In this document: one piece after another, positions 5,487 to 42,330 of the stretch
How positions within the stretch are numbered: position 1 is the stretch's first letter
Layout: the number at the start of each line of letters is the position of its first letter
Position numbers and translations under genes: made by a program
NCBI RefSeq assembly: GCF_042453785.1
Contig: NC_091674.1
Coordinates: 24,630,001 to 24,694,000 of the forward strand
DNA: 64,000 nucleotides
Direction of reading: 5' to 3'
Source of the DNA: Malus domestica
Taxonomy: Eukaryota > Streptophyta > Magnoliopsida > Rosales > Rosaceae
The notes under the pieces: model-generated
Seen by the model: only the letters and a program-made list of their open reading frames with translations
Told to the model about the DNA's origin: nothing
Database searches by the model: none

Positions 5487-5837
5487 TACAAAATCGCTTT
5501 TCTCAGAAGTGCTTCATGAAGGAGTTAAGTTTCTGAAATCTGCAAAATAAAAGAACCCAATAAAGCAGGAATTGAAAACTTCCAACCTATATTTAAGAAT
5601 GATGGTAACTATTTGGGGATCATTAAAGATGAAACAGAGTTGTGAGTTATGACAGAATCAGATTAGATGATGGGAAATTTCTGAGATTTTAGAGAAACCG
5701 AGATAAGATAAAATACAAAAAAGAAAGTTCATACGAGATAAAAGAAAATAAAATGTCCAAAGTTGAGCATTTGAGAAAGTTTAAACAAACATATGAAGCA
5801 GGCAGAAACAGAAAAAAATGAGAGTGAAGTTCTAAGT
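5487..5837 (-). promoter_or_regulatory. Putative leader and promoter of the LRR pseudokinase
   Basis: This 350-base AT-rich stretch lies directly upstream of the start codon at 5486, before the next repeat begins near 5838. Promoter function is inferred from position only. No clear TATA box position could be fixed. Confidence 0.3.
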
Positions 5838-6603
5838 GGATGATCACACTTGCTCCCTAATACACTGTATTAGATTTTCTTACACTACGATATTCTAAAA
5901 TACTCAAATCCTTTACACAGAGGGATTAAGATTGAGTGCAGAGAGACAGACACATATGGTGGTCAACTAGCTTAAAAACTCAAACTTGAATTCAACGAGG
6001 CAAACTCACACTCTAACTAACTGGCCTATCCCACATCTGTAAAACGAGTTTATTAGATGCAATAAGAATTTTGAAAATATTTAGAAAAATGGGTGTAAAA
6101 GATGAGAAAGTTTGGAGAGAGTGGGTGGCGGGTACCTCCAATGAATGCATTAAAGTTCTCCCACATGGTGTTCTTTCTTGGAAAGAAAAGTGGTTTATCT
6201 CCAGCATTAATGGAGTAGGCTTTACTTAATATTCTGAAACATTAGTTGCCCTCTCTGCGCAGCAACGAGAGAAGTGGTAGACCTCATGAGACCAACTTGA
6301 AAACACAAGAAAAATTGTGGAAGGGAGTTCATACTTTTTTATGAAGCAATGACTTATGAACTTGGTATCTTAATTTGTCCTATTGACTTTCAATTTTGAT
6401 TTCTGACCGTCTAATATTTTAAAATATGCTAATTTATCCACAACTGACAAAATTGTAATTAAGAGTTATTTCCGTCCATCAAACGAGGAATAGCACAACA
6501 AAAAGGTGATAAATTTAACAATTCAGAAAAACCTAACTTATTTTATAGATTAAGAGCTTATAACTAAACTAAAAGTCAAAAGAGTAAATCAGAAAAACTT
6601 TGT
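5838..6603. repeat. Unclassified repeat, copy 1 (no LINE inside)
   Basis: About 770 bases match, with scattered differences, the sequence at 18577-19168 joined to 27242-27410. In copy 1 the sequence is uninterrupted. In copy 2 it is split by the 8-kb chimeric LINE. The position equivalent to the insertion is the AT-rich run at 6412-6427. No coding capacity, LTR or TIR was recognised, so the repeat class is unknown. Confidence 0.75.
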
Positions 6604-7200
6604 AAATTGAGAGAGTCTGGCTAGTTTTGTTTTGTTTTTTTTTTAAATTCGATTATGGACACAAAATATGTAAAACAAAAGGGTAAATTGGTAAAAGGAA
6701 TGCATGTGCTTCGAACTTGTGATTGCTACTTGCCATAACTTTACAGGCTGTGTGCCAAACCAGGACCAAAATCAGCAGCAGACGAAGCCATACAAATTTT
6801 CTGAAGCAGTCGGCTAGTTAGAAGATATTTCATATGTACATACAATCATACTAGCACTGCCAAACAAATTGTACTGGATTGGAATGGAAAACTCAAAACT
6901 CAAAACTCAAATCTCGATCGCTTCAAATGCGGATTGACGAAATATTAACGTTTTCGAACCCTACACAAGTTTTTACAGCTTTAAACACTGCTAGGTAATC
7001 TTCGAGATAAATGACAGTGCCAAGAACCTGCAAGATCGACCAGGTCAATACAACAAGAAGCACTAAATCTCAGTCCTCTAATGGTACTGTCTGTCATTGG
7101 ATTTGTTTGCATCTTTTTCGAATTAGCACTTTCAAGTGAATATGTGGTGTGCATGTAAGGGCTAATTTCTGAGTTTCTGTAATTTTTTTTAAATTGCATC
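6604..7200. other. AT-rich intergenic stretch
   Basis: No gene, RNA or element end was recognised. It holds short poly-T and poly-A runs and a small local repeat of 'aaaactcaaaactcaa' type near 6890-6910. Confidence 0.4.
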
Positions 7201-15963: not shown

Positions 15964-18017
15964 TGTTGATGCACAAAATCAGCGAGGACTTTGGTACAAC
16001 AGAAAGTGTCAAGTTTGTGACTTTCGCTAGATTGCTCCGGTCACTAGTGTAGATAAGTATGTAAATGGATAGAGGCGGAGAAGCAAACACAAGATGTACT
16101 TGGTTCACCTAGATTGGCTACGTCCACGGAGTAGAGGAGTTCTCATTAATTGTGAAGGGTTTACACAAGTACATAGGTTCAATCTTTCCTTTAGTGAGTG
16201 CTAGTGAATGATTTAGTACAAATGACATTAGGAAATATTGTGAGAGAATGATCTCCTTTTATAGAAGAGTCTCTAGCTTTGTTCTGACTTTGACATGTGT
16301 CATGCTGTGATTGGCCTCTGAAGTTGACATATGTCATGCTATGATTGGCCTCTGATGTCGACACGTGTCGTGCTGTGATTGGCCTCTTGGTTGGAGGGAA
16401 ACTCTTGTGGATCATTGACAGTATAACGTTGACCGGTGCTCAGTAGTTTCGAGATTGGTCAAGTATGGTACAAACAGTGATCCCCTAAGTTCCCGAGTGA
16501 GGGAAACTCCTCGTTTGGGGACTTGCAAGATCCAAGCCGCTGAGTAATCACGAAACTTCTAAGTATTGAAGTGTGGTATCGTTTTCACTTGCCTTATTTG
16601 TCTCATAGGTAGATGTGGCATCTTCTCTAGAAGTACTTTTCCTCCATCCAGGGGTGGTATCTTTAACCGATGTAGATGCACAAGGTAATGTATCAATTTC
16701 ACTTGAAGCTTCCTTGTAGTTTCGGACTTGGTCAAGCGTGATACAAACCCTATAATAGAAATCCCCCAAGTCTCTGAGCAAAGAGATCTGTCGAAAGAGG
16801 TGACAGACAAGGTAAACAATCAGTCCCAGATCGGAAGTTTGATTTCGAGCTCCGGCTGATTGTTCTCATTTTCCCTATCTTGTAGGCAACAAGAAGGATA
16901 AAGAGAAGAAAAATAAGAAGAGATGATATGAGATATTTTTGCTTTTGAAGAAGTAACTTTCCACAGGCTTATTCTTGAACCCGGCTTGAGGGTTTTTTGG
17001 TTTCCTACAAAGTATAAGGCCGACTCAAGAATTTGAGGGTCAAAACAAGTCTATCAAATCTAGAGTACGTTCGACCCTGATGATATGAGATACTTTTGCT
17101 ATTGACAAAGTAGTGGATGTGGCATGGCGAGGCTTTACTTTTTGGTGATGGTGTCAACAAAAGGTTGTTGAAGCTTCTTGAGCTATTCGGATAGGGCAAC
17201 GATGTCGAGCTTGGCTTTGACTTAGACTCATCCGTCTGGATTATGTGGTTCTGCAAGGAGGGCGTTGTGCTATAGTGATCTGTTCCCGCTCATCGTTGAA
17301 CCTTCTGCTCCAATCTTTTGCATCGCAGAAATGGTGCGCAACCTTTGCATTTGAATGGTCCTTCAGAGCACTACTTCTTAGCGACTCATCCATGTGTGGC
17401 AGCTTCAGTGTAAAGCGTCAATATCGTATCAACTGTTCTGAGGTATTTGTCAAAGGACTTCGTGACCTTGACAACAGTTAAGGATGAGTACTCGAGAGCA
17501 ATGTTAGGTAAGTAACCATGCAAAGATTCTGGGCAATCAGTTCCAGATCGGAAGTTTGATTTCAGGTTTCGACTGATTGTGTTTATTCTCATTGTCATGC
17601 AGGTAAGAGCAAAGGCAAAGGAAAAGACAGGGAAAAAGCATGATATGGGATACTCTTGCTTTTGACCCTGATGATATGAGATACTCTTACTCTGGTGTGG
17701 CTGGTTTGCATAAGTATTATTGGGGGGAAGAAAGCTGAGTATTTCGAGAGGCTTCGTTGGGAGTGCCCTCTCAGATATGAGGAAGGGTTGAGCATTTTTG
17801 CAGGTCTGCCTGTCCGTTGAGAATGAAGGTCGACATATATAGGAGTCTCCCTAACAACAAGTAGTAATGTTATTCCTTTACCCTTCTTGGTCATAACAAT
17901 GTAGTGGGAGCTGTAAGCTTCACGTGTTTTAACTTTGTCAAATCACTTTGAAAAAGTGGTCTATGGTATTTGGAAAGCTGATGTTGCGTGTGAAGATTGC
18001 AAACAAGCTTTTTGTCC
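15964..18017 (+). mobile_element. Partial LARD-like LTR element, independent copy
   Basis: It begins with TGTTGATGC, which I take as an LTR start. For about 2 kb it is collinear with the LARD segment of the chimeric elements (35415-36810 plus, and the reverse of 25190-26605). Unlike those, it retains about 280 bases between 16254 and 16535. These include a TATA-like 'ccttttatagaag', a threefold repeat (16281-16390), and the block 'cccgagtgagggaaac' to 'gctgagt'. No gag or pol was seen. It stops at 18017 against a MITE. It shows what the LARD looked like outside the LINE chimera. Its classification as a LARD is my inference from the non-coding body and from recollection of apple repeats. Confidence 0.6.
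16281..16390 (+). repeat. Threefold repeat of about 38 bp with ACACGTGTC box in the LTR
   Basis: Three consecutive units contain GACA(T/C)(G/A)TGTC followed by (A/G)TGCTRTGATTGGCCTCT. The third holds the palindromic core GACACGTGTC, an E-box/ABRE-like site. They lie just downstream of the TATA-like 'ttttatagaag', so they are candidate LTR regulatory repeats. Function is inferred. Confidence 0.6.
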
Positions 18018-18576: not shown

Positions 18577-19168
18577 TGGATGATCACACTTGCTCCCTAA
18601 TACACTATATCAGATTTTCTTACAAGTCGATACTCTAAGATACTCAAATCCTTTACACAGAGGAATTAAGATTGAGTGCAAAGGGACAGACACGTACAAT
18701 GGTCAACTAGCTTAAAGATTCAAACTTGAATGCAACGAGACAAACTCACACTCTAGCTAATTGGCCTATCCCACGTTTGTAAACCGAGTTTATTAGATGC
18801 AATAAGAATTGTGAAAATATTTAGAAAAATGGATGTAAAAGATGAGAAAGTTTGGAGTGAAAGTGGGTGGCGGGTACCTCCAATGAATGCATTAAAGTTC
18901 TCCCACATGGTGTTCTTTCTTGGAAAGAAAAGTGGTTTATCTCCAACATTAATGGAGTTGGCTTTACTTAATATTCTGAAACAGTTTTTGCCCTCTATGC
19001 GCAGCAACGAGAGAAGTCATAGACCTCACTGAGACCAACTTGAAAACACAAGAAAATTGTGGAAGGTAGTTCTTACTTTTTATGAAGCAATGACTTATGA
19101 ACTTGGTATCTTAATTTTCCCTATCGACTTTCAATATTGATTTCTGATCGTCTAATATTTTAAAACAT
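18577..19168. repeat. Unclassified repeat, copy 2, left part (split by LINE)
   Basis: This matches 5838-6427. Its last 16 bases (19153-19168) are the left target duplication of the chimeric LINE. The repeat resumes at 27242. Confidence 0.75.
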
Positions 19169-19280
19169 AACTCCGCCGTGTAAGTTTATCTTACATTGCC
19201 GGTCCCAAGCCCGGATAAAGGAGGAGGGGGAGGGCGTCAGGTAGTCGACAGCCGGCACTCCATGATCACGTCGAATCCTT

Positions 19281-22200
19281 ATGAAAATGAATCCAGAACG
19301 AAATCGCGCTAAAGCTAGGGCGTCACCCGTAAGTGGCGCGCTGTGTGGCCCGAGCACAGTGATAAGTGAGCAAGGGTCGCTGTATCTCCATCGGCACCCG
19401 GATGCAGTGTTAAATGAGCAAGGGGGCTATAGAAACTTCTTTTCGAACGACTCCACTCAAAGTTGTTTGGGAGCATATGCTCCTATCAACTTTACACGGG
19501 ACACACAAAAGAAGTACTTTGATTCTATTAGACAGGGAATGGTGAAGAAGCTAGGACAGAAGGGTAGAGTTCAAGGGAGCAAAATGCGTTTAGGAACGTG
19601 GAATATAGGAACCTTGACGGGAAAATCTATGGAAGTAGTAGAAGTTATGGTGAGGAGAAGGATAAATATTATATGCCTACAAGAAACTAAGTGGGTTGGG
19701 CGTAAGGCAAAGGATCTAGAAAACTCAGGGTTTAAACTATGGTATTCGGGCACAAATAGAACGAGAAACGGTGTTGGCATCATTGTGGACAAGACCTTGA
19801 CACAAGATGTTGTAGATGTCAAGAGGGTAGGAGATAGAATCATGGCAATTAAGATTGTAATAGGACAAGAACTTATCAATGTGATTAGTGCGTACGCACC
19901 TCAAGTAGGGTTGGATACGAGTTCGAAGGAGAAATTTTGGGAAGACCTTGGAGACTTGGTGCAAGGAATTGTTCAGACGGAGAAGTTATTTATAGGAGGA
20001 GATTTAAATGGACACGTGGGCAGGGAGACAGGCAACTATGGAGGTTTTCATGGTGGCCATGGTTTCGGGGAGAGAAACGAGGATGGGGAAGCTATCTTGG
20101 ATTTTGCAATGGCATATGATCTCTTCTTAGCCAACACCTTCTTTAAGAAGCGGGAAGAACATGTGATCACCTACAAGAGTGGGTCGTCAAAAACACAAAT
20201 AGATTTTCTTCTAATGAGGAAAAGGGATCGTATAACTTGTAAGGATTGCAAAGTTATACCAGGAGAGAGCGTGGCTAATCAACATCGCTTGTTGGTGATG
20301 GATGTACATATCAAAAGAGTGAGAAAAAAGAACAAGACTTGGAAGTGCCCAAGGACTAGATGGTGGAATCTAAAAGAAGAAAAACAAGTCATTTTCAAAG
20401 AGAAAATAACCACCCAGTGTGTGTGGGATAGAGAGGGGGAAGCTAACCAAATGTGGGATTCCATGGCTAGTTGTATCCGAAAAGTAGCAAAAGAGGTATT
20501 AGGAGAGTCCAAGGGCTTTGCTCCACACCAAAAGGAATCGTGGTGGTGGAATGAGGAGGTACAAACAAAGGTGAAGGCTAAGAAGGAATGTTGTAAAGCC
20601 TTATACAAGGATAGGACCGATGAAAATGGTGAAAGGTATAGAAAAGCGAAGCAAGAGGCGAAGAAAGCTGTGAGAGAAGCTAAGTTAGCGGCTTATGACG
20701 ATATGTATAAACGACTAGATACCAAAGAAGGAGAGTTGGATATCTATAAACTAGCTAGAGCAAGGGAAAAGAAGACAAGGGACCTAAACCAAGTGAGGTG
20801 CATCAAGGATGAGGATGGAAAGGTTCTTGCTACAGAGAACGCGGTTAAAGACAGATGGAAAGGTTATTTTCATAATCTTTTCAATGAAGGACATGAAAGG
20901 AGTGCTTCTTTAGGGGAGTTGAGTAACTCAGAAGAGTGTAGAAACTACTCTTTTTATCGTAGAATCCGGAAGGAAGAAGTGGTTGTAGCTTTGAAGAAGA
21001 TGAAGCATAGAAAAGCAGTAGGCCCAGACGATATACCAATCGAAGTGTGGAAAGTTTTGGGAGAGACGGGTATAACATGGCTCACTGACCTTTTCAATAG
21101 GATTTTGAAAACGAAGAAGATGCCAAATGAGTGGCGAACGAGCACTTTGGTGCCTATCTACAAGAATAAGGGCGATGTACAAAATTGCATGAACTATAGG
21201 GGTATTAAGCTAATGAGTCATACAATGAAGCTCTGGGAGAGAGTCATTGAGCATAGATTGAGGCAAGAGACACGGGTTTCGGACAACCAATTCGGGTTCA
21301 TGCCAGGGCGCTCAACCATGGAGGCAATCTATCTCTTACGAAGATTGATGGAAAGATATAGAGATGGGAAAAAGGATTTACACATGGTCTTTATAGATTT
21401 GGAAAAAGCGTATGATAGGGTCCCAAAAGACATTCTTTGGAGGATTTTAGAGAAGAAAGGAGTACGAGTAACATATATCCAAGCTATACAGGATATGTAT
21501 GAAGGAGCAAAGACTGCCGTAAGAACTCATGAAGGACAAACCGAAAGCTTTCCCATAACTGTAGGATTACATCAAGGCTCATCCTTAAGTCCTTACCTCT
21601 TTGCGTTGGTAATGGATGAGTTAACAGGACATATTCAAGATGATATTCCTTGGTGTATGCTTTTCGCAGACGATATAGTGTTGATAGATGAAACTCAAGA
21701 AGGGGTAAATGCAAAGCTTAACCTTTGGAGAGAAGTGTTGGAATCTAAAGGTCTTCGCCTAAGCCGATCAAAGACAGAATATATGGAGTGCAAGTTCAGT
21801 GCAAATGGAGGCCAAAACGAGTTAGGGGTGAGGATCGGAGATCAAGAAATACCAAAGAGCGACCGTTTTCGTTACCTAGGATCTATCTTGCAAAAGAACG
21901 GAGAATTAGATGGAGATCTCAACCATAGAATACAAGCTGGATGGATGAAGTGGAAGAGTGCATCCGGCGTGTTGTGTGACCACCGTATGCCACTGAAGCT
22001 CAAGGGAAAATTTTATAGGACGGCAATAAGGCCGGCGATGCTGTATGGCACAAAATGTTGGGCGGTGAAGCATCAACACGTACACAAAATGGGTGTAGCG
22101 GAGATGAGGATGCTTCGTTGGATGTGTGGGCACACGAGAAAGGATAAGATTAGGAATGAGGATATTCGGGGTAAAGTAGGAGTAGCCGAAATTGAAGGAA

Positions 22201-22439
22201 AGATGAGAGAAAATCGGTTACGGTGGTTTGGACATGTGCAAAGAAGGCCTACTGACGCTCCGATTAGAAGATGCGACTATGGGACAGAGGTTCAGGGCCG
22301 AAGGGGTAGAGGAAGACCCAGGAAAACTTTGAGAGAGACCCTAAGAAAAGACTTAGAGTACTTGGATCTAACGGAGGACATGACACAGGACAGAACACAA
22401 TGGCGTTCTAAGATTCATATAGCCGATCCCACTCAGTGA
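19281..22439 (+). CDS. RTE-clade LINE endonuclease-reverse transcriptase
   Basis: A single uninterrupted 1052-codon frame. After a ~100-residue leader, an apurinic-like endonuclease begins at [14 protein letters not shown] and includes [25 protein letters not shown] and the domain end SKTQIDFLL. The reverse transcriptase follows from about residue 560, with [23 protein letters not shown] broken across motifs, the [14 protein letters not shown] motif [14 protein letters not shown], and the catalytic FADD in [12 protein letters not shown]. The C-terminus includes [10 protein letters not shown]. One ORF with no RNase H and a microsatellite tail is typical of the RTE clade. Host annotation often mislabels it as craniofacial development protein 2-like. 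The frame looks intact, so it may still be functional. The stop lies at the junction with the LARD segment (CACTCAGTGA), so this copy lacks its own 3' tail. Confidence 0.9.
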
Positions 22440-22697
22440 CTTGGATTTTCCAAGTCTCCAACCGAGAAGTTGTCCTCGTTCGGGAAATTAAGGGAACACT
22501 ACCTCAACCTACATGCTCCACTCACAAAGCTCCAACATACAAGCATCAACAAAAGAAAATTCAAAGAACTTAGCGAAGAAGGCTTTGGTGATTTAACACA
22601 ATATGTTGAAATGAAGGAAAGCTTATTTATTGATATCTTGATAAATTACAAATATGTACATATACTTGAGTCAAAATAAACAAACAAGAGGGAGCCT

Positions 22698-23372
22698 TCA
22701 CAAAGGTTGCTTAGGAGAAGTCTCGGCAGTCGGTAGAGCCCCAGAAAGAGAAGGCACCGGAGGGGGATCATTCGGAGCCTCAGTACTGGACAGAACCCTA
22801 GAAGGAGGAGGCATCAGAGGTTGATCATTTGGAGCTTCATTACGCGGTACAGCCCCAGAAGACGAAGGCAATAAATGCCTTTGGAACAAACCCACAAATC
22901 TCTGATGATCAAGTAAAACCTGACCATCAGATTCCTTCATCTGGTCAAGCTTCCTCTTCATGTTTGTAGCATAGTCATGTGCGAGCCGGTGCAACTGTTT
23001 ATTCTCATGCTTGAGCCCTCTAATCTCCTGTTTGAGACTCATCACTTCAGCCGCCAATTATTCAACTTGGCGGGTTCGAGCAAATAGGCGTTGTGCCATA
23101 TTAGACACAGAACCTGCACACTGAACACTAAGAGCCAGAGAATCCTTAACAGCCAACTCATCAGACCGTTTGGAAAGTAGTCTGTTATCTTTGGGAGTGA
23201 GAAGGTTCCTGGCCACTACTGCAGCGGTCATATCATTCTTCATCACGGAATCCCCAACGGTAAGAGGACCAGTAGGGGAGACGAAGGATGGGCGCCATAT
23301 GTTGTCTGGAGAAGGCGGGGCTGCCTCTTCAACAAGGTTCAAGTCAAAACGACGGTCGGAGGGGCCAGACAT
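22698..23372 (-). pseudogene. LARD coiled-coil protein, interrupted by one stop
   Basis: The ATG is at 23370-23372. The frame is open through MSGPSDRRFDLNLVEE to LFARTRQVE, then meets a TAA where copy B has a serine codon. It continues in the same frame to QPL and a stop at 22698. It is the same protein as the intact 224-residue frame at 38944-39618. It contains a coiled coil and a proline/serine-rich tail and has no recognised domain. The stop makes this copy inactive. Confidence 0.75.
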
Positions 23373-23499
23373 TTTCAAAGGTGTAGAAGAGAGAAGAGGT
23401 CGGACAAATCAAGTTCTTAGAAGTGCAAGAATGGAGCTTCTACATGTGGATATTCAAGTGTGCTTTGGAACTTAATGTTAGCCTCTATAAAAATCTGCA

Positions 23500-23850
23500 C
23501 TCGACGAAGCTTCAGAAATCGAAGAGGCGTTTGCTTTCTCAAAAGCTGGGCTGCTCAGAGACCACGAGGGTCGATCTCAGAAATCGAAGAGGCGTTTGCT
23601 TTCTCAAAAGCTGGGCTGCTCAAAGACCACGAAGGCCGATCTCAGAAATCGAAGAGGTTTGCTTTCTCAAAAGCTAGGCTGCTCAGAGACCACGAGGGCC
23701 GATCTCAGAAATCGAAGAGGTTTGCTTTCTCAAAAGCTGGGCTGCTCAGAGACCACGAGGGCCGATCTCAGAAATCGAAGAGGTTTGCTTTCTCAAAAGC
23801 TGGGCTGCTCAGAGACCACGAGGGTCGATCTCAGAAATCGAAGAGGCACC
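23500..23850 (+). repeat. Tandem array of about 60-bp units in LARD A
   Basis: Five to six head-to-tail units, each 'agaaatcgaagaggYgtttgc', then 'tttctcaaaagct(g/a)ggctgc', then 'agaccacgagggYcgatctc'. Units are nearly identical, with periods of about 60-63 bases, consistent with recent slippage or unequal exchange. The apparent open frames here only reflect the repeat. Confidence 0.85.
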
Positions 23851-24234
23851 TACTTTTCCAGCCTTGTCAGCACCTGTCACACGCACACTCAGCTTTGCGG
23901 AAATTATGGGCATTCTGTCGAAGATTTCTGGCGAAGTAGAAAGCACATGAATCGTACTGTTCAATCACCCACTTCCCACACGCAACAGTAGCTCATGGGT
24001 ACCACATATAACTTTGCCAAAGTTCTCTGACAAAGTTGAGACTACTTTTCCAGCCTTGTCAGCACCTGTCACACGCACACTCAGCTTTGCGGAAATTATG
24101 GGCATTCTGTCGAAGATTTCTGGCGAAGTAGAAAGCACATGAATCGTACTGTTCAATCACCCACTTCCCACACGCAACAGTAGCTCATGGGTACCACATA
24201 TAACTTTGCCAAAGTTCTCTGACAAAGTCGAGAC
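23851..24234 (+). repeat. Direct tandem duplication of 192 bp
   Basis: 23851-24042 and 24043-24234 are almost identical, starting 'tacttttccagccttgtcag' and ending 'gttctctgacaaagt'. In copy B the equivalent sequences occur twice but far apart (near 37500-37650 and 38400-38570). This suggests local rearrangement of the array. Confidence 0.85.
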
Positions 24235-24359
24235 ACGTGAAGCTTGCAACTCTCACTACATCGCTCTGACCAAGAAGGGTAAAAGAATAGCAAAGAAACA
24301 ATACTAACAAAGTTTAGACACATAAATTTTGACGGCCTAGCTACCATATTATTACCTAC

Positions 24360-25160
24360 AAGGGTAAAGGAACAGTACCACTGCTGGATAATTGGAAAGT
24401 CCCGGTGTGTCAACCTCTGTGCTTCATGGCAAGGTAGACTAGCAAACATGCCCAACCTTTACTCACATTCGAGAAAACACTCCCAACAAGATTGCTTGCC
24501 CCAAAATCGAAGAGGCATCGCCCTCCGAATCTCGAGAGCCAGACTCCCAACATGATTACTTTCTCAAAAATCGAATAGAGGGTAAAGGAACAGTACCACT
24601 GCTGGATAATTTGAAAGTCCCTGTGTGTCATCCTCTGTGCTTCGTGGCAAGGTAGACTAGCAAACATGCCCAACCTTTACTCACATTCGAGAAAACACCC
24701 CCAACAAGATTGCTTGCTCCAAAATCGAAGAGGCACCGCCCTCCGAATCTCGAGAGCCAGACTCCTAACATGATTACTTTCTCAAAAATCGAAGAGAGGG
24801 TAAAGGAACAGTACCACTGCTGGATAATTGGAAAGTCCCTGTGTGTCAACCTCTGTGCTTCGTGGCAAGGTAGACTAGCAAACATGCCCAACCTTTACTC
24901 ATATTCGAGAAAACACTCCCAACTCCCAACATGATTACTTTCTCAAAAATCGAAGACACCGCTCTCCGAATCTCGAGAGCCAGACCCCCAGCATGATTGC
25001 TTTCTCAAAAATCGAAGACACCGCTCTCCGAATCTCGAGAGCCAGACCCCTAGCATGATTGCTTTCTCAAAAATCGAAGAGGCATCGTTCTCCGAATCTC
25101 GAGAGCCAGATCCCCGACAGGATTGCTTGTTCGAAAACCGAAGAGGCACCACTTTCCTAA
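24360..25160 (+). repeat. Array of 218-bp and ~63-bp units in LARD A
   Basis: Three units of about 218 bases span 24360-24930, each with 'gggtaaaggaacagtaccac', 'caaggtagactagcaaacat', 'gcccaacctttactca' and 'cgaagaggca'. They are followed by shorter units of about 63 bases (24930-25160) built on 'ctctcgaatctcgagagcc'-like and 'tttctcaaaaatcgaaga' blocks. All unit types share the core AAATCGAAGA. Confidence 0.8.
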
Positions 25161-26514
25161 CTTCAAGAGCCGGATCTCCTTGGATAAAGCTTGTCTGTAA
25201 TCTTCACACGCAACATCAGCTTTCCAGATACCACAGACCACTTTTTCAAAGTGCTCTGACAGAGTTAAAACTTGTGAAGCTGGCAGCTCCCACTACCGTG
25301 CTATGACCAAGCAGGGTAAAGGAATAGCATTATTACTTGATGTTAGGGAGACTCCTATATATGGCGACCTCCATCCCCAACGGACAGGCAGACCTGCAAA
25401 AATGCTCAACCCTTCCTCTTATCTGAGAGGGCACTCCCAACGAAGCCTTTCAAAATATTCAGCTTTCTTTCCCCCCGATAATACCTCTGTAAACAAGCTA
25501 TTCTAGAGCAAGAATATCTCATATCATCAGGGTTAAAAGCAAGAGTATCCCATATCATGCTTTTTCCCTGTCTTTTCCTTTGGCCTTGTTCTTACCTGCA
25601 AGACAAGGAGAAAGAGAGCAATCAGTCAGCACTTGGAATCAAGCTTCCAGCCAGGAACTGACTGCCTGGAACCCCTTACCCTGGCATTGCTCTCGAGTAC
25701 TCATCTTCAACATCTTATGCTTCCAAGGAAGATACCGCATCTGCCTGAGGATAGGGCAAGTGAGAAGGATACAAGGAAGCATGTGGAGACAAGCGTAACA
25801 GCACACGTGCCGATATATCCATTACTCTGTCAAAAGCAAAAGTATCCCATATCAGCAGGGTCGAACGTACTCTAGATTTGATGGACTTGTTTTGACCCTC
25901 AAATTCTTCAGTCGGCCTTATACTTTGGAGGAAACCAGAAAACCCTCCAGCCCAGTTCAAGAATAAGCCTGTGGAAAGTTACTTCTTCAAAAGCAAAAGT
26001 ATCCCATATCATCTCTTCTCATTTTTCTTCTCTTTATCCTTCATGCTGCCTGCAAGATAGGGAGAATGTGAACAATCAGCCGGAGCTCTGATTGCTTACC
26101 TTGTCTGTTACCTCTTTCAGCAGATCCCCTAGCTCGGCGACTTGGGGGACTCCTACTACATGGTTTGTATCGCGCTTGACCAAGCCTGAAACTACAAGTA
26201 AGCTTCAAGTGACATTGATACATTACCTTGTGCATCTCCACCAGTTACAGATACCACCCCTGGATGGAGGAAGAGTACTTCCAGAGAAGATTCCACATCT
26301 ACCTATGAGACAGATAAGGAAAGTCAAGCCGATACCACACTCCGGGACTTAGAAGTTTCGTGGTTACGAGATCATTCTCCCACAATATTTCCTAATGTCA
26401 TTTGTACTAAATCATTCACTTGTACTCCCTAAAGGAGAGCTTGAACCTATGTACTTGTGTAAACCCTTCACAATTAATGAGAACTCATCTATTCCGTGGA
26501 CGTAGCCAATCTGG

Positions 26515-27225
26515 GTGAATCACGTACATCTTGCGTTTGCTTTCCTATCTCTATCCATTTATATACTTATCCACACTAATGACCGGAGCAATCTAGCGAA
26601 GATCACAAAAAGTGACCGTTTTCGCTACCTAGGATCTATCTTGCAAGAGAACGGAGAATTAGATGGAGATCTCAACCATAGAATACAAGCTGGATGGATG
26701 AAGTGTAAGAGTGTATCCGGCGTGTTGTGTGATCGTCGTAGGCCACTGAAGCTCAAGGGAAAATTTTATAGGACGGCAATAAGGCCAACGATGTTGTATG
26801 GCACAGAATGTTGGGCGGTGAAGCATCAACATGTACACAAAATGGGTGTAGCGGAGATGAGGATGATTCGTGGGATGTATGGGCACACGAGAAAGGATAA
26901 GATTGGGAATGAGGATATCCAAGGTAAAGTAGGAATAGCCAAAATTGAAGGAAATATGAGAGAAAATCGGTTCCGGTGGTTTGGACATGTGCAAAGAAGG
27001 CCTACTGACGCTCCGGTTCGAAAATGTGACTACGGGACAGAAGTTCAGGGCCGAAGGGGTAGAGGAAGACCTAGGAAAACTTTGGAAGAGACCCTAAGAA
27101 AAGACTTGATTACTTGGATCTAACGGAGGACATGACACAAAACCGAGCGCAATGGCGTTATAGGATTCATATAGCCGACCCCACTTAGTGGGAAAAGGCT
27201 TTGTTGTTGTTGTTGTTGTTGTTGT
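26515..27225 (+). mobile_element. Second RTE 3' end (R2) of chimera A
   Basis: From about 26607 the translation reads [20 protein letters not shown] and continues like the C-terminus of the RTE protein ([18 protein letters not shown]). A frameshift near 27112 breaks the frame just before YLDLTEDM. It ends 'cacttagtgggaaaaggc' followed by seven or eight TTG repeats. This is the functional RTE 3' tail of the chimera. Confidence 0.85.
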
Positions 27226-27241
27226 TAATATTTTAAAACAT

Positions 27242-27410
27242 GTTAATTTGTCCACAACTGACAAAATTGTAAATAAGAGTTATTTCCGTCCATCAAACGA
27301 GGAATAATACAACAAAAAGGTGATAAATTTAACAATTCCGAGAAACTTAACTTGTTTTATAGATCAAGAGCTTATAATTAAAATGAAAGTCAAAAGAGTA
27401 AATCAGAAGA
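27242..27410. repeat. Unclassified repeat, copy 2, right part
   Basis: This continues the repeat broken at 19168 and matches about 6428-6603, confirming that the sequence between was inserted. Confidence 0.75.
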
Positions 27411-27536
27411 ACTTTGTAAGCAATAATTAATAAACCAAGAAAAAATATTTAATTATAAAATATATGAAAATGTACGTAAAAGTTGTCCGAACATAAAAAA
27501 AAACTACAAGTAGTCGTATGGGTTTAATGCATCAAG

Positions 27537-30286: not shown

Positions 30287-30516
30287 TAAAGAGCCACATC
30301 CTCAGTCAACTCAACAGTGCCAACTAGGATCCAAGTCCTTAGTACAGTAAGCAATTACTTAGTGTATAAGTTTAGTGTTACTTTAGTATTGTAACTAATC
30401 TTAGTTTAATGTTAGTTAGTTACAATAGTTAATATCTAAGCTTTATTTTAGCTTACTGGTATAAATACCATCATGTAAATCATTTCTTCAGTTAATAAGA
30501 AATATCTTTCTAAATA
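30287..30516 (+). repeat. 5' LTR of the copia element
   Basis: About 230 bases, matching 34485-34714 with roughly four mismatches. It contains 'gcttactggtataaatacca' (a TATAAATA promoter box) and ends at TTTCTAAATA. It is followed directly by TGGTATCATC, a Met-tRNA-type primer-binding site. The first bases differ slightly from the 3' copy (TGTAAAG there). Confidence 0.85.
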
Positions 30517-30781
30517 TGGTATCATCCCTTTTTGCTTAACCGTCTTTCTCTCTCTCTCGATCTTCTTTCTCGTTTCCTGCGATCTCTGATCTTCGTGGTT
30601 GTTGATCTTCGCAGTTTCTGTAACCTTTGCGATCTACAATTTTTGTGATTTCTGTATTTGCTTCAATTTGTGATCTTCGACTCTTGAGATCTGTCGTCGT
30701 ATTTTCGATTTCTGGAAGGTGGAAGCAATTGCACTATCAGTGATCTTCGCTCTTCTGCACTCTCTGTGATCTGCTGAATCT

Positions 30782-33700: not shown

Positions 33701-34485
33701 CCTGATGGCACTGTGGACCGGTAGAAAGCCTGTTTGGAAGCGAAAGAGTTTCATCAACAAGAAGGGATTGACTTTACAGAAACCTTCAGTCCCGTTGCAA
33801 AGCCTATTACTATTTGGATTCTTTTGACTTTAGCAGTACAGTTTGATTGGTTTTTAAACCAATTGGATATTAGTAATGCATTTTTGCACGGCACACTCAA
33901 GGAGGAGGTCATTATGCAACAACCTCTGAGATTTATTGATCCATCTAAAGCTTCTTATGTTTGCAAGCTCCACAAATCCCTTTATGGCCTCAAGCAAGCC
34001 CCCCCGGGCATGGTATGACAAGCTTTTCCAGACTTTGGTTTCTCTTGGTTTCACCAACTCTCCTTCTTATTGCTCTCTGTTTGTTCAATATCAACCAGCT
34101 CTTGTTATTGTTATGGTCTATGTTGACGATATCATTGTGACTAGACCCAATGCCCAACTCTGTCAAGCTTTTATTCATAAGCTCAGTCAACTATTTCCGG
34201 TTAAAGACCTCGGCCCTTTACACTATTTCCTGGGTTTGGAAGTTCATCGCAGTTCAGCAGGAATTTTTCTTTCTCAACATAAGTATGCTGCTGATCTTCT
34301 ACATTCGGGAAATTGATTATCACTACATTCGGGAACTTGTCTTAACTTCTCTTCTATTTGTTCGCTTTGTACTCAGTCACCACCAAATTGCAGATATTCA
34401 CACCAAATCATTGTCCAAAGCTCGGTTTCAGCTTCTTAAATCCAAGCTTTCACTTGGTCTTCCTCCGTTCAGCTTGAGGGGGTGT
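30782..34485 (+). pseudogene. Copia gag-pol polyprotein, broken
   Basis: The ATG is at 30782. Gag starts MTSSTSSPTD and includes KLKRDNYLVWNALF. Stops TAA (31259-31261) and TAG (31265-31267) interrupt gag, then the same frame continues to 33235. This part holds the zinc knuckle CQICHSLEHEAIDC (C-X2-C-X4-H-X4-C), the protease motif WLMDSGATSH, the H-H-C-C integrase head (HNRLGH...CSDCAIG) and the integrase core with ITDSGGEF and QNGCVERKHR. Further in-frame stops lie at 33233 and 33722, and a frameshift occurs in the C run near 34005. RT motifs [11 protein letters not shown] and VYVDDIIV are present. RNase H is mostly deleted; only YHYIREL...HHQIADIHTKSLS survives. Confidence 0.9.
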
Positions 34486-34714
34486 AAAGAGCCACATCCT
34501 CAGTCAACTCAACAGTGCCAACTAGGATCCAAGTCCTCAGTACAGTCAGCAATTACTTAGTGTATAAGTTTAGTGTTACTTTAGTATTGTAACTAATCTT
34601 AGTTTAATGTTAATTAGTTACAATAGTTAATATCTAAGCTTTATTTTAGCTTACTGGTATAAATACCATCATTTAAATCATTTCTTCAGTTAATAAGAAA
34701 TATCTTTCTAAATA
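34485..34714 (+). repeat. 3' LTR of the copia element
   Basis: Begins TGTAAAG (34483 if the TG is counted) after the polypurine tract and ends TTTCTAAATA at 34714. It is the partner of the 5' LTR at 30287-30516. Confidence 0.85.
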
Positions 34715-34805: not shown

Positions 34806-34833
34806 TATATAACAACAACAAAACCTTTTCCCA

Positions 34834-35410
34834 CTAAGTGGGGTCGGCTATATGAATCCTAGAACGCCATTGCGCTCGGTTTTGTGTCATGTCCTCCGTT
34901 AGATCCAAGTACTCTAAGTCTTTTCTTAGAGTCTCTTCCAAAGTTTTCCTAGGTCTTCCTCTACCCCTTCGGCCCTGAACCTCTGTCCCGTAGTCACATC
35001 TTCGAACCGGAGCGTCAGTCGGCCTTCTTTGCACATGTCCAAATCACCGGAGCTGATTTTCTCTCATCTTTCCTACAATTTCGGCTACTCCTACTTTACC
35101 TCGGATATCCTCATTCCCAATCTTATCCTTTCTCGTGTGCCCACACATCCCACAAAGCATCCTCATCTCCGCTACACCCATTTTGTGTACGTGTTGATGC
35201 TTCACCGCCCAACATTCTGTGCCATACAACATCGCTGGCCTTATTGCCGTCCTATAAAATTTTCCCTTGAGTTTCAGTGGCCTACGACGGTCACACAACA
35301 CGCCGGATGCACTCTTACACTTCATCCATCCAGCTCGTATTCTATGGTTGAGATCTCCATCTCATTCTCCGTTCTCTTGCAAGATAGATCCTAGGTAGCG
35401 AAAACGGTCG
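34834..35410 (-). mobile_element. Second RTE 3' end (R2) of chimera B
   Basis: The minus-strand frame carries the RTE C-terminus ([21 protein letters not shown], then RRPTDAP and [10 protein letters not shown]) with a frame break near 35035. It begins at the LARD junction near 35413 and ends in (TTG)n at 34812. Confidence 0.8.
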
Positions 35411-36799
35411 CTTTTTGTGATCTTCGCTAGATTGCTCCGGTCATTAGTGTGGATAAGTATATAAATGGATAGAGATAGGAAAGCAAACACAAGATATACG
35501 TGGTTCACCCAGATTGGCTACGTCCACGGAATAGAAGAGTTCTCATTAATTGTGAAGGGTTTACACAAGTACATAGGTTCATGCTCTCCTTTAATGAGTA
35601 CAAGTGAATGATTTAGTACAAATGACATTAGGAAATATTGTGGGAGAATGATCTCGTAATCACGAAACTTCTAAGTATCGGAGTGTGGTGTCGTCTTGAC
35701 TTGCCTTATCTGTCTCATAGGTAGATGTGGCATCTTCTCTGGAAGTACTCTTCCTCCATCCAGGGGTGGTATCTTTAACTGGTGGAGATGCACAAGGTAA
35801 TGTATCAATTTCACTTGAAGCTTACTTGTAGTTTCAAGCTTGGTCAAGCGCGATACAAACCATGTAGTAGGAGTCCCCCAAGTCGCCGAGCTAGGGGGTC
35901 TGCTGAAAGAGGTGACAGACAAGGTAAGCAATCAGAGCTCCGACCGATTGTTCACCTTCTCCCCATCTTGCAGCAGCATGAAGGATAAAGAGAAGAAAAA
36001 TGAGAAGAGATGATATGAGATACTTTTGCTTTTGAAGAAGTAACTTTCCACAGGCTTATTCTTGAACTGAGCTGGAGGGTTTTCTGGTTTCCTCCAGAGT
36101 ATAAGGCCGACTGAAGAATTTGAGGGTCAAAACAAGTCCATCAAATCTAGAGTACGTTCCACCCTGCTGATATGGGATACTTTTGCTTTTGACAGAGTAA
36201 TGGATGTATCGGCACGTGTGCTGTTACGCTTGTCTCCACATGCTTCCTTGTATCCTTCGCACTTGCCCTATCTGTTCCTCAAGCAGATGCGGAATCTTCC
36301 CTGGAAACATAAGATGTTGAAGATGAGTACTCGAGAGCAATGCCAGGTAAGTAATCAGGTAAGGGGTTCCAGGCAGTTAGTTCCTGGCTGGAAGCTTGAT
36401 TCCAAGTGCTGACTGATTGCTCTCTTTCTCCTTGTCTTGCAGGTAAAAACAAGGCCAAAGGAAAAGACAGGGAAAAAGCATGATATGGGATACTCTTGCT
36501 TTTAACCCTGATGATATGAGATATTCTTGCTCTAGTATAGCTTGTTTGCAGAGGTATTATCGGGGGGAAAGAAAGCTGAATATTTTGAAAGGCTTCGTTG
36601 GGAGTGCCCTCTCAGATATGATGAAGGGTTGAGCATTTTTGCAGGTCTGCCTGTCCGTTGGGGATGGAGGTCGACATATATAGGAGTCTCCCTAACAAGT
36701 AGTAATGCTATTCATTTACCCTGCTTGGTCATAGCACGGTAGTGGGAGCTGCCAGTTTCACATGTTTTAACTCTGTCAGAGCACTTTGAAAAAGTGGTC

Positions 36800-38800
36800 T
36801 GTGGTATCTGGCTCTCGAGATTCGGAGAGCGATGCCTCTTCGATTTTTGAGAAAGCAATCATGCTGGGGGTCTAGCTCTCGAGATTCGGAGAGCAGTGTC
36901 TCTTCGATTTTTGAGGAAGTAATCATGTTGGGAGTCTGGCTCTCGAGATTCGGAGGGCGGTGCCTCTTCGATTTTGGAGCAAGCAATCCTGTTGGGAGTG
37001 TTGTCTCGAATGTGAGTAAAGGTTGGGCATGTTTGCTAGTCTACCTTGCCCCGAAGCACAAAGGTTGACACACAGGAACTTTCCAATTATCTAGCAATGG
37101 TACTGTTCCTTTACCCTCTCTTCGCTTTTGAGAAAGTAGTCATGTTGGGAGTCTGGCTCTCGAGATTCGGAGGACGGTGCCTCTTCGATTTTGGAGCAAG
37201 CAATTTTGTTGGGAGTGTTTTCTCGAATGTGAGTAAAGGTTGGGCATGTTTGCTAGTCTACCTTGCCACGAAGCAGAGAGGTTGACACACAGGAACTTTC
37301 CAATTATCCAGCAATGGTACTGTTCCTTTACCCTTGTGGGTAATAATATGGTAGCTAGACCTTCAAAATTTATGTGTCTAAACTTTGTTAGTGCTGTTTC
37401 TTTGCTATTCTTTTACCTTTCTTGGTCAGAGCGATGTAGTGGGAGCTGCAAGCTTCACGTGCTCAACTTTGGCAGAGAACTTTGGCAAAGTTATCTGTGG
37501 TACCCATGAGCTATTGTTGCGTGTGGGAAGTGGGTGATTGAACAGTAAGATTCATGTGCTTTCTACTTCACCAGAAGTCTTCGACAGAATGCCCATAATT
37601 TCTGCAAAGCTGAGTGTGCGTGTGACAGGTGCTGACAAGGCTAGAATAGTAGGTGCCTCTTCGATTTCTGAGATCGGCCCTCGTGGTCTCTGACCAGCCC
37701 AGCTTTTGAGAAAGCGAGCGCCTCTTCGATTGATTTGGAGAACGATGCCTTATCGATTTTTGAGAAAGCAATCATGCTGGGGCTCTGGCTCTGGAAGATT
37801 CGGGGAGCAGTGTCTCTTCGATTTTTGAGAAAGTAATCATGTTGGGAGTCTGGCTCTCGAGATTCGGAGGGCGGTGCCTCTTCGATTTTGGAGCAAGCAA
37901 TCTTGTTGGGAGTGTTTTCTCGAATGTGAGTAAAGGTTGGGCATGTTTGCTAGTCTACCTTGCCACGAAGCACAGAGGTTGACACACAGGGACTTTCCAA
38001 TTATCCAGCAATGGTACTGTTCCTTTACCCTCTCTTCGATTTTTAAGAAAGTAGTCATGTTGGGAGTCTGGCTCTCGAGATTCGGAGGACGGTGCCTCTT
38101 CGATTTTGGAGCAAGCAATCTTATTGGGAGTGTTTTCTCGAATGTGAGTAAAGGTTGGGCATGTTTGCTAGTCTACCTTGCCACGAAGCACAGAGGTTGA
38201 CACACAGGGACTTTCCAATTATCCAACAGTGGTACTGTTCCTTTACCCTTGTGGGTAATAATATGGTAGCTAGACCTTCAAAATTTATGGGTCTAAACTT
38301 TGTTAGTGCTGTTTCTTTGCTATTCTTTTACCCTTCTTGGTCAGAGCGATGTAGTGGGAGCTGCAAGCTTCACGTGCTCAACTTTGGCAGAGAACTTTGG
38401 CAAAGTTATCTGTGGTACCCATGAGCTATTGTTGCGTGTGGGAAATGTGTGATTGAACAGTAAGATTCATGAGTTTTCTACTTCCCCAGAAGTCTTCGAC
38501 AGAATGCCCATAATTTCCGCAAAGCTGAGTGTGCGTGTGACAGGTGCTGACAAGGCTGGAAAAGTAGGTGCCTCTTCGATTTCTGAGATCGGCCCTCGTG
38601 GTCTCTGGGGAGCCCAGCTTTTGAGAAAGCGAGCGCCTCTTCAATTTCTGAGATCGACCTTCGTGGTCTTAGAGCAGCCCAACTTTTGAGAAAGCAAACG
38701 CCTCTTCGATTTCTGAGATCAACCCTCGTGATCTCTAAGCAGCCCAGCTTTTGAGAAAGCAAACGCCTCTTCGATTTCTGAGCAGGCGCCTCTTCGATTT
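36800..38800 (+). repeat. Large tandem-array region of LARD B
   Basis: Mixed units all contain the core CCTCTTCGATTT. The ~63-base units carry 'ctctcgagattcggaga', and the ~218-base units (about 36940-38270, at least four) carry 'tgggcatgtttgctagtcta' and 'ttgacacacagg'. Units of about 60 bases at the end (37650-37780, 38560-38800) carry 'tgagatcgRccYtcgtggtc'. Two long blocks (37320-37660 and 38240-38570) are near-identical and imply a segmental duplication inside the array. Confidence 0.85.
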
Positions 38801-38943
38801 CTGAAGCTCCGTCGAGTGCAGATTTTTATAGGGGCTGACATTAAGTTCCAAAGCACACTTGAATCTCCACCAGTAGAAGCTTCATTCTTGCACTTCTAAG
38901 ATCTTGATTTGTCCGACCTCTTCTCTCTTCAACACCTTTGAAA

Positions 38944-39618
38944 ATGTCTGGCCCCTCCGACCGTCGTTTTGACTTGAACCTTGTTGAAGAGGCAGCCCCG
39001 CCTTCTCCAGACAACATATGGCGCCCATCCTTCGTCTCCCCTACTGGTCATCTTACCGTTGGGGATTCCGTGATGAAGAATGATATGACCGCTGCGGTGG
39101 TGGCCAGGAACCTTCTCACCCCCAAAGATAACAGACTACTTTCCAAACGGTCTGATGAGTTAGCTGTTAAGGATTCACTGGCTCTCAGTGTTCAGTGTGC
39201 AGGTTCTGTGTCTAATATGGCCCAACGCCTATTTGCTCGAACCCGCCAAGTTGAATCATTGGCGGCTGAAGTGATGAGTCTCAAACAGGAGATTAGAGGG
39301 CTCAAGCATGAGAATAAACAGTTGCACCGACTCGCACATGACTATGCTACAAACATGAAGAGGAAGCTTGACCAGATGAAGGAAACTGATGGTCAGGTTT
39401 TACTTGATCATCAGAGATTTGTGGGTTTGTTCCAAAGGCATTTATTGCCTTCGTCTTCTGGGGCTGTACCGCATAATGAAGCTCCGAATGATCAACCTCT
39501 GATGCCTCCTCCTTCTAGGGTTCTGTCCAGTACTGAGGCTCCAAATGATCCCCCTCCGGTGCCTTCTCTTTCTGGGGCTCTACCGACTGCTGAGACTTCT
39601 CCTAAGCAACCTTTGTGA
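38944..39618 (+). CDS. LARD coiled-coil protein, intact, unknown function
   Basis: The ATG at 38944 opens 224 codons to a TGA at 39616-39618. The upstream in-frame TTG-AAA is not a start. The N-terminus MSGPSDRRFDLNLVEEAAPP contains DLNL, similar to EAR-type repression motifs, though not a complete DLNxxP or LxLxL. The middle (about 95-145: VESLAAEVMSLKQEIRGLKH and following) has heptad leucines and should form a coiled coil. The tail is P/S-rich with a near-repeat (APNDQPLMPPPS / APNDPPPVPSLS). There is no zinc knuckle, protease or RT, so it is not an ordinary gag. A TATA-less CT-rich leader precedes it. I do not recognise the family beyond this repeat; the open frame could be recent chance survival or selection. 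Confidence 0.65.
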   Translation: MSGPSDRRFDLNLVEEAAPPSPDNIWRPSFVSPTGHLTVGDSVMKNDMTAAVVARNLLTPKDNRLLSKRSDELAVKDSLALSVQCAGSVSNMAQRLFARTRQVESLAAEVMSLKQEIRGLKHENKQLHRLAHDYATNMKRKLDQMKETDGQVLLDHQRFVGLFQRHLLPSSSGAVPHNEAPNDQPLMPPPSRVLSSTEAPNDPPPVPSLSGALPTAETSPKQPL

Positions 39619-39878
39619 AGGCTCCCTCTTGTGTGTTTATTTTGACTCATGTATATGTACATATTTGTAGCTTATCGGGGATATCAATAAATAAGCTTTC
39701 CTTCATTTCAACGTATTGTGTTAAATACACCAAAGCCTTCTTCGCTAAGTTCTTTGAATTTTCTTTTGTTGAAGCTTGTATGTTGAAGCTTTCTGAGTGG
39801 AGCATGTAGGTTGGGGTAGTGTTCCCTTAATTTCCCGAGTGAGGAAAACTTCTCGGTTAGAGACTTGGAAAATCCAAG

Positions 39879-41848
39879 TCACTGAGTGGGATCGGCTATA
39901 TGAATCTTAGAATGCCATTGTGCTCGATCCTGAGTCATGTCCTTCGTTAGATCCAAGTACTCTAAGTCTTTTCTTAGAGTCTCTTCCAAAGTTTTCCTAG
40001 GTCTTCCTCTACCCCTTCGGCCTTGAACCTCTGTCCCATAGTCGCATCTTCTAATCGGAGCGTCAGTAGGCCTTCTTTGCACATGTCCAAACCACCGTAA
40101 CCGATTTTCTCTCATCTTTCCTTCAATTTCGGCTACTCCTACTTTACCCCGGATATCCTCATTCCTAATCTTATCCTTTCTCGTGTGCCCACACATCCAA
40201 CGAAGCATCCTCATCTCCGCTACACCCATTTTATGTACGTGTTGATGTTTCACTGCCCAACATTCTGTGCCATACAGCATCGCCGGCCTTATTGCCGTCC
40301 TATAAAATTTTCCCTTGAGCTTCAGTGGCATACGGCGGTCACACAACACGCCGGATGCACTCTTCCACTTCATCCATCCAGCTTGTATTCTGTGGTTGAG
40401 ATCTCCATCTAATTCTCCGTTCTTTTGCAAGATAGATCCTAGGTAACGAAAACGGTCGCTCTTTGGTATTTCTTGATCTCCGATCCTCACCCCTAACTCG
40501 TTTTGGCCTCCATTTGCACTGAACTTGCACTCCATATATTCTGTCTTTGATCGGTTTAGGCGAAGACCTTTAGATTCCAACACTTCTCTCCAAAGGTTAA
40601 GCTTTGCATTTACCCCTTCCTGAGTTTCATCTATCAACACTATATCGTCTGCGAAAAGCATACACCAAGGAATATCATCTTGAATATGTCCTGTTAACTC
40701 ATCCATTACCAACGCAAAAAGGTAAGGACTTAAGGATGAGCCTTGATGTAATCCTACAGTTATGGGAAAGCTTTCGGTTTGTCCTTCATGAGTTCTTACG
40801 GCAGTCTTTGCTCCTTCATACATATCCTTTATAGCTTGGATATATGCTACTCGTACTCCTTTCTTCTCTAAAATCCTCCAAAGAATGTCTCTTGGGACCC
40901 TATCATACGCTTTTTCCAAATCTATAAAGACCATGTGTAAATCCTTTTTCCCATCTCTATATCTTTCCATCAATCTTCGTAAGAGATAGATTGCCTCCAT
41001 GGTTGAGCGGCCTGGCATGAACCCGAATTGGTTGTCCGAAACCCGTGTCTCTTGCCTCAATCTATGCTCAATGACTCTCTCCCAGAGCTTCATTGTATGA
41101 CTCATTAGCTTAATACCCCTATAGTTCATGCAATTTTGTATGTCGCCCTTATTCTTGTAGATAGGCACCAAAGTGCTCGTTCGCCACTCATTTGGCATCT
41201 TCTTCGTTTTCAAAATCCTATTGAAAATGTCAGTGAGCCATGTTATACCTGTCTCTCCCAAAAGTTTCCACACTTCGATTGGTATATTGTCTGGGCCTAT
41301 TGCTTTTTTATGCTTCATCTTCTTCAAAGCTACAACCACTTCTTCCTTCCGGATTCGACGATAAAAAGAGTAGTTTCTACACTCTTCTGAGTTACTCAAC
41401 TCCCCTAAAGAAGCACTCATTTCATGTCGTTCATTGAAAAGATTATGAAAATAACCTCTCCATCTGTCTTTAACCGCGTTCTCTGTAGCAAGAACCTTTC
41501 CATCCTCATCCTTGATGCACCTCACTTGGTTTAGGTCCCTTGTCTTCTTTTCCCTTGCTCTAGATAGTTTATAGATATCCAACTCTCCTTCTTTGGTATC
41601 TAGTCGTTTATACATATCGTCGTAAGCCGCTAACTTAGCTTCTCTGACAGCTTTCTTCGCCTCTTGCTTCGCTTTTCTATACCTTTCACCATTTTCATCG
41701 GTCCTCTCCTTGTATAAGGCTTTACAACATTCCTTCTTAGCTTTCACCTTTGTTTGTACCTCCTCATTCCACCACCAAGATTCCTTTTGGTGTGGGGCAA
41801 AGCCCTTGGACTCTCCTAATACCTCTTTTGCTACTTTTCGGATACAAC
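39879..41848 (-). pseudogene. 5'-truncated RTE LINE reverse transcriptase of chimera B
   Basis: The frame is open from the truncation point at 41848 ([16 protein letters not shown]...) to the stop at 39879. The upstream codons to 41924 are flanking DNA. It includes the whole RT with [27 protein letters not shown] and FADDIVLID, plus the C-terminal region. The endonuclease is lost, so this copy cannot act alone. It is nearly identical to the RT part of copy A. Confidence 0.9.
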
Positions 41849-41943
41849 TATATAAATAATTATTTGCTTTTATACAATACATATTGTGAATTATTTGCAG
41901 CACATTTTTCTGGTCTTGTAACAACTTTAGACTTAAAACTAAG

Positions 41944-42330
41944 CATATCTTGAGGATAGTACCGCTTCTATTGCATGGTGGATGCGATATAACTTCTCCT
42001 CGTGCGTAAGCTTTTTATGAATTTCATTGTATATATCCAGCAACATCTGATAGCAGACTTTCATATACTCTGGTAGTTGATTCATGACTGAAACATCCTA
42101 CCTGATCAAGTAATAATATAAACCAGTCGTGCGTAATTAGGTTAGATTTTGCTTTTGATCAGACGGTGATGTAAGGTAAGATAGTTTATATATAAGAGAA
42201 TTTTAACTAACGATGTATTCATGCCTCTCAATAACTTCAGTAAAGAGCTCTAGTTCTTCATGTGTTCCATATGCATCATAAACGTCATCGATAGTGGATA
42301 TAATAGCAGTAGCTTTGCATAATGTCCTCC
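41944..42330 (-). pseudogene. Terpene synthase relic
   Basis: Exon-like 42329-42225 reads ...[33 protein letters not shown]. It holds the Mg-binding DDVYD (DDxxD) motif of class I terpene synthases. After an intron, 42101-41945 reads DVSVMNQLPEYMKVCYQMLLDIYNE, the next family exon. The conserved tryptophan codon of R-W-D at the junction is TAG, and the second exon ends early in SSRYA-stop. The upstream and downstream exons are absent. The left side abuts transposon sequence and the right flank received chimera B. It is a dead fragment. Confidence 0.85.

Follow-up and report, generated by a model that had tools for sequence, protein, structure and literature searches.

Within a 64-kb window of Malus domestica DNA (the whole stretch analysed here), a unit at 19169-27225 joins an RTE-like long interspersed nuclear element (LINE), a segment of a long terminal repeat (LTR) element in antisense orientation and a second RTE 3' end. 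The question raised by this locus is whether the three parts were mobilised together or assembled where they now stand. The three-part unit is known from two copies, A and B, both inside the window. We consider it likely that these copies represent an autonomous-looking chimeric retroposon, in which an RTE-like LINE is followed by antisense LTR-element sequence and, after that, by a borrowed RTE 3' end that carries a (TTG)n tail. Movement as one unit is indicated because copy B carries the same two junctions between unrelated flanks, with a 5' truncation and a tail of its own, and because the RTE parts of the two copies pair by their position in the chimera. The RTE clade name of the LINE parts is presumptive and taken from their anatomy.

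Two loci of the three-part unit

Reading of the bases bore out the limits and the order of parts that a preliminary description had proposed for copy A, namely a first RTE part (RTE#1), the antisense LTR-element segment, a second RTE part (RTE#2) and the (TTG)n tail, all inside the target duplications (Table 1). The RTE-type tail is present as proposed, and so is the perfect 16-bp duplication around the whole of copy A, TAATATTTTAAAACAT, whose left and right copies are identical at 16/16 bases. Among 20000 pairs sampled from the local flanks, none matched over 16 bp and the longest match was 10. The full-length RTE protein attributed to copy A was also recovered. A leader of about 110 bases precedes an open frame of 1052 amino acids, in which an apurinic-type endonuclease is followed by a reverse transcriptase (PF03372 and PF00078) and whose TGA stop sits at junction 1; residues 128-787 of the protein match LINE-1 ORF2p structures in the PDB. 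Further LINE traits of the unit are the short-repeat (TTG)n tails that replace poly(A), the 16-bp duplication and the 5' truncation of copy B.

A diverged duplicate of the copy A insertion site lies elsewhere in the window without the insert. The left flank of copy A (18577-19168) corresponds to 5837-6427 and the right flank (27226-27419) to 6412-6605, at 92% each. These matches have just the 16 bases 6412-6427 in common, the single target copy, which agrees with the duplication at 15/16 bases. Once the insert and one duplication are omitted, the alignment of the filled to the empty site has no internal gap. Therefore, everything between the duplications is absent from the duplicate of the site. 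The preliminary description had taken the outer duplication as enough evidence for a joint, one-step insertion. This argument was set aside because the outer duplication would equally be preserved if an LTR element entered an RTE that had inserted earlier, and copy B was used instead.

Copy B is separated from copy A by 7.6 kb and is inverted relative to it. Junction 1 is identical in A and B across 20 compared bases, and junction 2 differs between them by one substitution, which is located in RTE#2. No similarity between the flanks of A and B was detected at E 0.01 over 2 kb on each side; B is thus not a segmental duplicate of A. The start of copy B within the RTE and its end at the TTG tail are the expected outcome of abortive target-primed reverse transcription. 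Its candidate duplication, TTATATA, overlaps the copy by two bases at each end, at the element start and in the tail. In all, two loci with both internal junctions, different flanks and duplications of their own (for B, the 7-bp candidate) are present within the window.

The 3' RTE region occurs in all four RTE parts (A1 and B1 for RTE#1, A2 and B2 for RTE#2) and was compared over 591 gap-free columns containing 27 informative sites. Grouping by part (A1 with B1, A2 with B2) is seen at 26 of these sites, grouping of A1 with A2 at 1 and of A1 with B2 at 0. In the same region A1 and A2 differ at 49/591 positions, A1 and B1 at 18/595 and A2 and B2 at 25/594. This 26-to-1 pairing shows that the RTE parts were already distinct in the common ancestor of A and B and, therefore, that the chimera is older than the A/B split. 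Copy B and the pairing together lend support to the earlier proposal that the three-part molecule moved as one by target-primed reverse transcription.

Table 1 Positions of the parts of copies A and B, their duplications, junctions and frames in the window
Feature	Position	Strand	Remarks
Insertion-site duplicate, diverged, without insert	5837..6605	+	matches 18577-19168 and 27226-27419, 92%
Left target duplication, copy A	19153..19168	+	reading of bases, local-flank comparison
Copy A RTE#1: 5' leader and RTE-like LINE as far as junction 1, stop region	19169..22436	+
RTE#1 frame, 1052 aa, open	19281..22439	+	Exo_endo_phos 105-260, RVT_1 631-869
Junction 1, RTE#1 / antisense LTR-element segment	22431..22438	+	ACTCAGTG; RTE#2 end ACTTAGTG; related LTR piece ACTCAGCG
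Copy A antisense LTR-element (LARD-like) segment	22440..26607	-	several tandem-repeat blocks
Copy A gag-like frame, stop to stop	22701..23408	-	one interrupting TAA at 23058-23060
Junction 2, LTR-type segment end / RTE#2 coding sequence	26603..26612	+	segment end at 26607
Copy A RTE#2: RTE 3' end, 5'-truncated	26608..27200	+	one-base deletion relative to RTE#1
Copy A (TTG)n tail	27201..27225	+
Right target duplication, copy A	27226..27241	+	local-flank comparison
Copy B, whole three-part unit	34811..41850	-	5'-truncated at point equivalent to 20468 of copy A
Copy B (TTG)n tail	34811..34823	-
Copy B RTE#2 part	34824..35415	-	two in-frame stops upstream of native stop
Copy B antisense LTR-element segment	35416..39878	-
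Copy B gag-like frame	38938..39618	+	uninterrupted, opposite strand to B's RTE parts
Copy B RTE#1 part	39882..41850	-	frame open up to junction 1
Copy B candidate 7-bp duplication TTATATA, 5' copy	41849..41855	-	partner 34806-34812

The surroundings of copy B contain further repeats. The interval separating the two copies contains, at 30287-34714, a long open frame (31268-33232) flanked by a pair of direct repeats of 230 bases that are 98% alike, an arrangement that is probably an LTR retrotransposon. Just upstream of copy B, 41860-42350 on the minus strand resembles, as judged by eye only, broken terpene synthase gene pieces, and 42503-43359 consists of a 333-base unit repeated 2.5 times.

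Constraint on the coding frames

Comparison of RTE#1 between A and B revealed differences at 44/1968 sites, comprising 22 synonymous and 22 non-synonymous changes with 0 stops and 0 indels. The resulting ratio of non-synonymous to synonymous substitution rates (dN/dS) is 0.25 (P = 0.00001 by site counts), and constraint was also detected (P = 0.0006) with a neutral expectation taken from the substitution spectrum of the antisense segment's right-hand unique block. This divergence is below that of the non-coding unique parts of the antisense segment (67/1766, p = 0.007) and below that of RTE#2 (25/594, p = 0.013). RTE#2 has a dN/dS of 0.6, indistinguishable from neutral (p = 0.31), and is damaged in both copies: B contains two in-frame stops, and A is frameshifted by the loss of one base. 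Polarised sites are few in all four RTE parts, with synonymous and non-synonymous changes numbering 7 and 2 in B1, 4 and 11 in A2, and 2 and 5 plus 2 stops in B2. Results indicate that the RTE#1 frame is under purifying selection across the A/B split. The overall picture suggested by these substitution patterns is of a replicating lineage in which the RTE#1 protein would have mattered and RTE#2 would have served merely as a tail.

The antisense segment is 4.2-4.5 kb long across A and B and has one recognisable LTR-type end; a pair of terminal direct repeats (two LTRs) was not found in 22440-26607. The preliminary description named it an antisense LARD segment. Its antisense, LTR-element nature was confirmed, but the LARD label is unproven, given the one LTR-type end, the lack of an LTR pair and the 226-residue frame in copy B. 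Tandem-repeat blocks at 23512-25171 in A and 36807-38782 in B differ in copy number between the two; a unit of 63-65 bases, for instance, is present 5.3 times in one and 3.3 times in the other.

The frame within the segment is presumably gag-like, a name given by position. In copy B it encodes 226 amino acids from a TTG start and 224 from the first ATG at 38944. Copies A and B differ at 15/681 sites of this frame, 11 of them at third positions, through 11 synonymous changes, 3 non-synonymous changes and 1 stop (P = 0.0002 against the local spectrum). Unexpectedly, this frame too looks constrained. The density of change is lower than in the rest of the left unique block (23/386, p = 0.003), is not different from the right block (44/1380, p = 0.26) and is borderline when both blocks are combined (67/1766, p = 0.06). 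Structure prediction for the copy B protein, run with no alignment, gave a mean predicted local distance difference test (pLDDT) score of 69.4; a single long helix (residues 60-167) is confidently modelled, and the remainder of the model is poor. A search for relatives in the PDB returned just 6 weak matches (E 0.44 or worse), and a Pfam scan returned 13 weak matches with 0 at the cut-off.

Either the gag-like frame is used, or it has been exchanged with a working LTR family, or the 15 sites mislead. In the boldest version of the first option, the unit would be a self-mobilising young retrotransposon that encodes the RTE protein on one strand and, on the other, a helical gag-like protein taken from an LTR element. 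Purifying selection would maintain both proteins, so that the captured piece would be a working second gene instead of a passenger. We think this unlikely. If true, the captured gag-like gene perhaps does the ORF1-like job that RTE elements lack.

Origin of the unit and alternative explanations

Junction 1 is an eight-base near-match of both partners, as seen when the fusion (ACTCAGTGACTTGG) is compared with the related LTR piece (ACTCAGCGGCTTGG) and with the RTE end as found in RTE#2 (ACTTAGTGGG), and a polymerase could switch templates at such a position. The LTR side of this junction resembles the reverse complement of 16478-16547, with 54/72 columns identical and a best score of 36 among 200 shuffles. 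The related piece itself, at 16014-18011, is a different LTR-element piece in the opposite orientation, with main matches 85-91% alike. About 290 of its bases (16256-16543) are missing at that place in A and B, and part of them resembles the junction-1 end of both copies. At junction 2 the segment end coincides with the start of the related piece (16014) and reads TCACA (sense strand TGTGA), which would fit an LTR end. Duplications around the segment were not seen; its two sides differ and the 5-bp duplication is absent, which fits loss of the segment's other side.

The most economical order of events, probable although less sure, is insertion of an LTR element into an RTE copy followed by one template switch to another RTE RNA. 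The insertion would have left the LTR-type end at junction 2. A reverse transcriptase copying the transcript of that locus would then have switched, at the eight-nucleotide near-match of junction 1, to the end of a second RTE RNA. The resulting unit would be transcribed into one RNA that begins at the RTE#1 leader, encodes the protein, crosses the antisense segment and finishes in the RTE#2 tail. The RTE#1 protein could use this tail for target-primed reverse transcription, and the unit would thereby copy itself in cis.

Alternatively, a single round of reverse transcription that changed template twice and so copied three RNAs could have produced the same junctions, with no prior LTR insertion into an RTE. 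The accessible part of PMC2104539 describes such products, one tripartite chimera from Magnaporthe (duplication of 14 bp) and two from mouse (15 and 16 bp), and ascribes them to template switching; the near-match of both partners at junction 1 would also suit this route. However, junction 2 falls at an LTR-type segment end, as judged from the piece at 16014, for which an integrase-made insertion is the simpler source. In addition, the middle part is antisense to the RTE parts, as judged by the gag-like frame and the LTR-type end, whereas the same text notes that the parts of bipartite chimeras commonly share one orientation. Double switching is a possibility that we hold in some regard but rate as doubtful.

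A further alternative is that copy A was built in place, from an RTE with its 16-bp duplication that later received an LTR insertion and underwent recombination or gene conversion of the part before the insert, with copy B arising as a retrocopy of a copy A transcript. The LTR-type end at junction 2 is as expected of a nested insertion, and the outer duplication would survive these events. However, the additional RTE 3' stretch before the insert needs a further event, given the 49/591 differences between A1 and A2, and the inner segment lacks the 5-bp duplication. The RTE#1 changes on the B branch, which are mostly synonymous (7 against 2, at few sites), suggest active intermediates between A and B. 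In-place assembly is, therefore, very unlikely.

The proximity and inverted arrangement of A and B might suggest DNA-level copying through an inverted segmental duplication rather than two retropositions, but this was rejected on the unlike 2-kb flanks. Copy B, moreover, has a start within the RTE, a separate TTG tail and a candidate duplication, and copy A is bounded by the 16-bp duplication and has an empty-site duplicate. The idea is left with almost no probability. Independent fusions that made the same arrangement twice, or an assembly artefact, deserve just as little credence, since both junctions lie at the same base in A and B and the pairing of the RTE parts follows chimera position at 26 sites against 1, even though both partners are probably repeated in the genome.

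Several observations weigh against a chimeric retroposon that was formed in the order given above and moved as one unit. Just two copies of the chimera were observed, both in this window. The copy B duplication is short, and matches of at least 7 bases occurred in a fraction of 0.0048 of 20000 local pairs, although the accessible part of PMC4245944 gives duplications of 5 bp for one LINE and 15 bp for another. The A branch of RTE#1 shows no constraint by itself (3 synonymous and 5 non-synonymous changes), unlike the B branch, and the third-position bias of the gag-like frame is unexpected for a pure antisense passenger. Finally, in the related piece some 500 bases separate the LTR-type end from the stretch resembling junction 1, whereas in copy A that stretch is at the opposite end of the segment, about 4 kb away.

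Database searches covered several further sources. No ribozyme or other Rfam family reached the gathering score in 15500-42500. The patterns of junction 1 and junction 2 gave 0 matches each in viral contigs, and no relatives of the gag-like and RTE proteins in viral contigs, or of the RTE protein in genome contigs, were confirmed; these collections are viral or prokaryotic, and their nulls therefore say nothing about plants.

Comparison with known retroposons

Among the matches listed from the open-access literature, mainly as titles and abstract openings, there was no description of an RTE and antisense LTR-element chimera in Rosaceae. The unit resembles RTE-clade LINEs in its single frame with endonuclease and reverse transcriptase, its short-repeat tail and its 5' truncation. 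It differs from them in that the native 3' end is replaced by the kilobases of antisense LTR-element DNA and a second RTE 3' end. LARDs are long, tandem-repeat-rich, LTR-element-like sequences with two long terminal repeats and no coding capacity. The segment is likewise long and rich in tandem repeats with an LTR-type end, but no LTR pair was found in it, it holds the gag-like frame in copy B and it moved by a LINE route. The SVA elements of apes are composite retroposons that combine tandem repeats with LTR-element sequence and are spread by target-primed reverse transcription; they have no protein of their own and depend on L1. The unit shares this composite make-up with SVA and, unlike SVA, contains an open RTE frame. 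The chimera lends itself to testing how a LINE copes with kilobases of sequence that separate the coding part from the tail it recognises, and whether captured genes can be retained.

Chimeric L1 copies formed by template switching or transduction are, according to the accessible part of PMC6500023, pervasive in the human and mouse genomes. In plants, chimeric derivatives of Sadhu occur in Arabidopsis (PMC2848041). These plant retroposons resemble the unit: in the available portion of that report, template switching or transduction is given as the source of their chimeric derivatives, and empty sites and duplications of 7-16 bp are described. Sadhu elements differ from it in being non-protein-coding, in carrying a poly(A) tract and in being expected to be non-autonomous. 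The tripartite chimeras of Magnaporthe grisea and mouse, as far as the accessible text of PMC2104539 describes them, share with the unit three directly joined parts, a 3' LINE, a short perfect outer duplication and LINE machinery. The Magnaporthe chimera, however, has a full non-coding RNA copy at its 5' end and is a single element, whereas the unit is present at two sites, with the open RTE frame as its 5' part and an antisense middle. LINE chimeras in the cited work, within the portions available, are single fusion events produced by template switching; the present unit is one three-part fusion found at two sites. With its selected-looking open frame and borrowed tail, the chimera may mark the emergence of a plant family of composite, autonomous retrotransposons.

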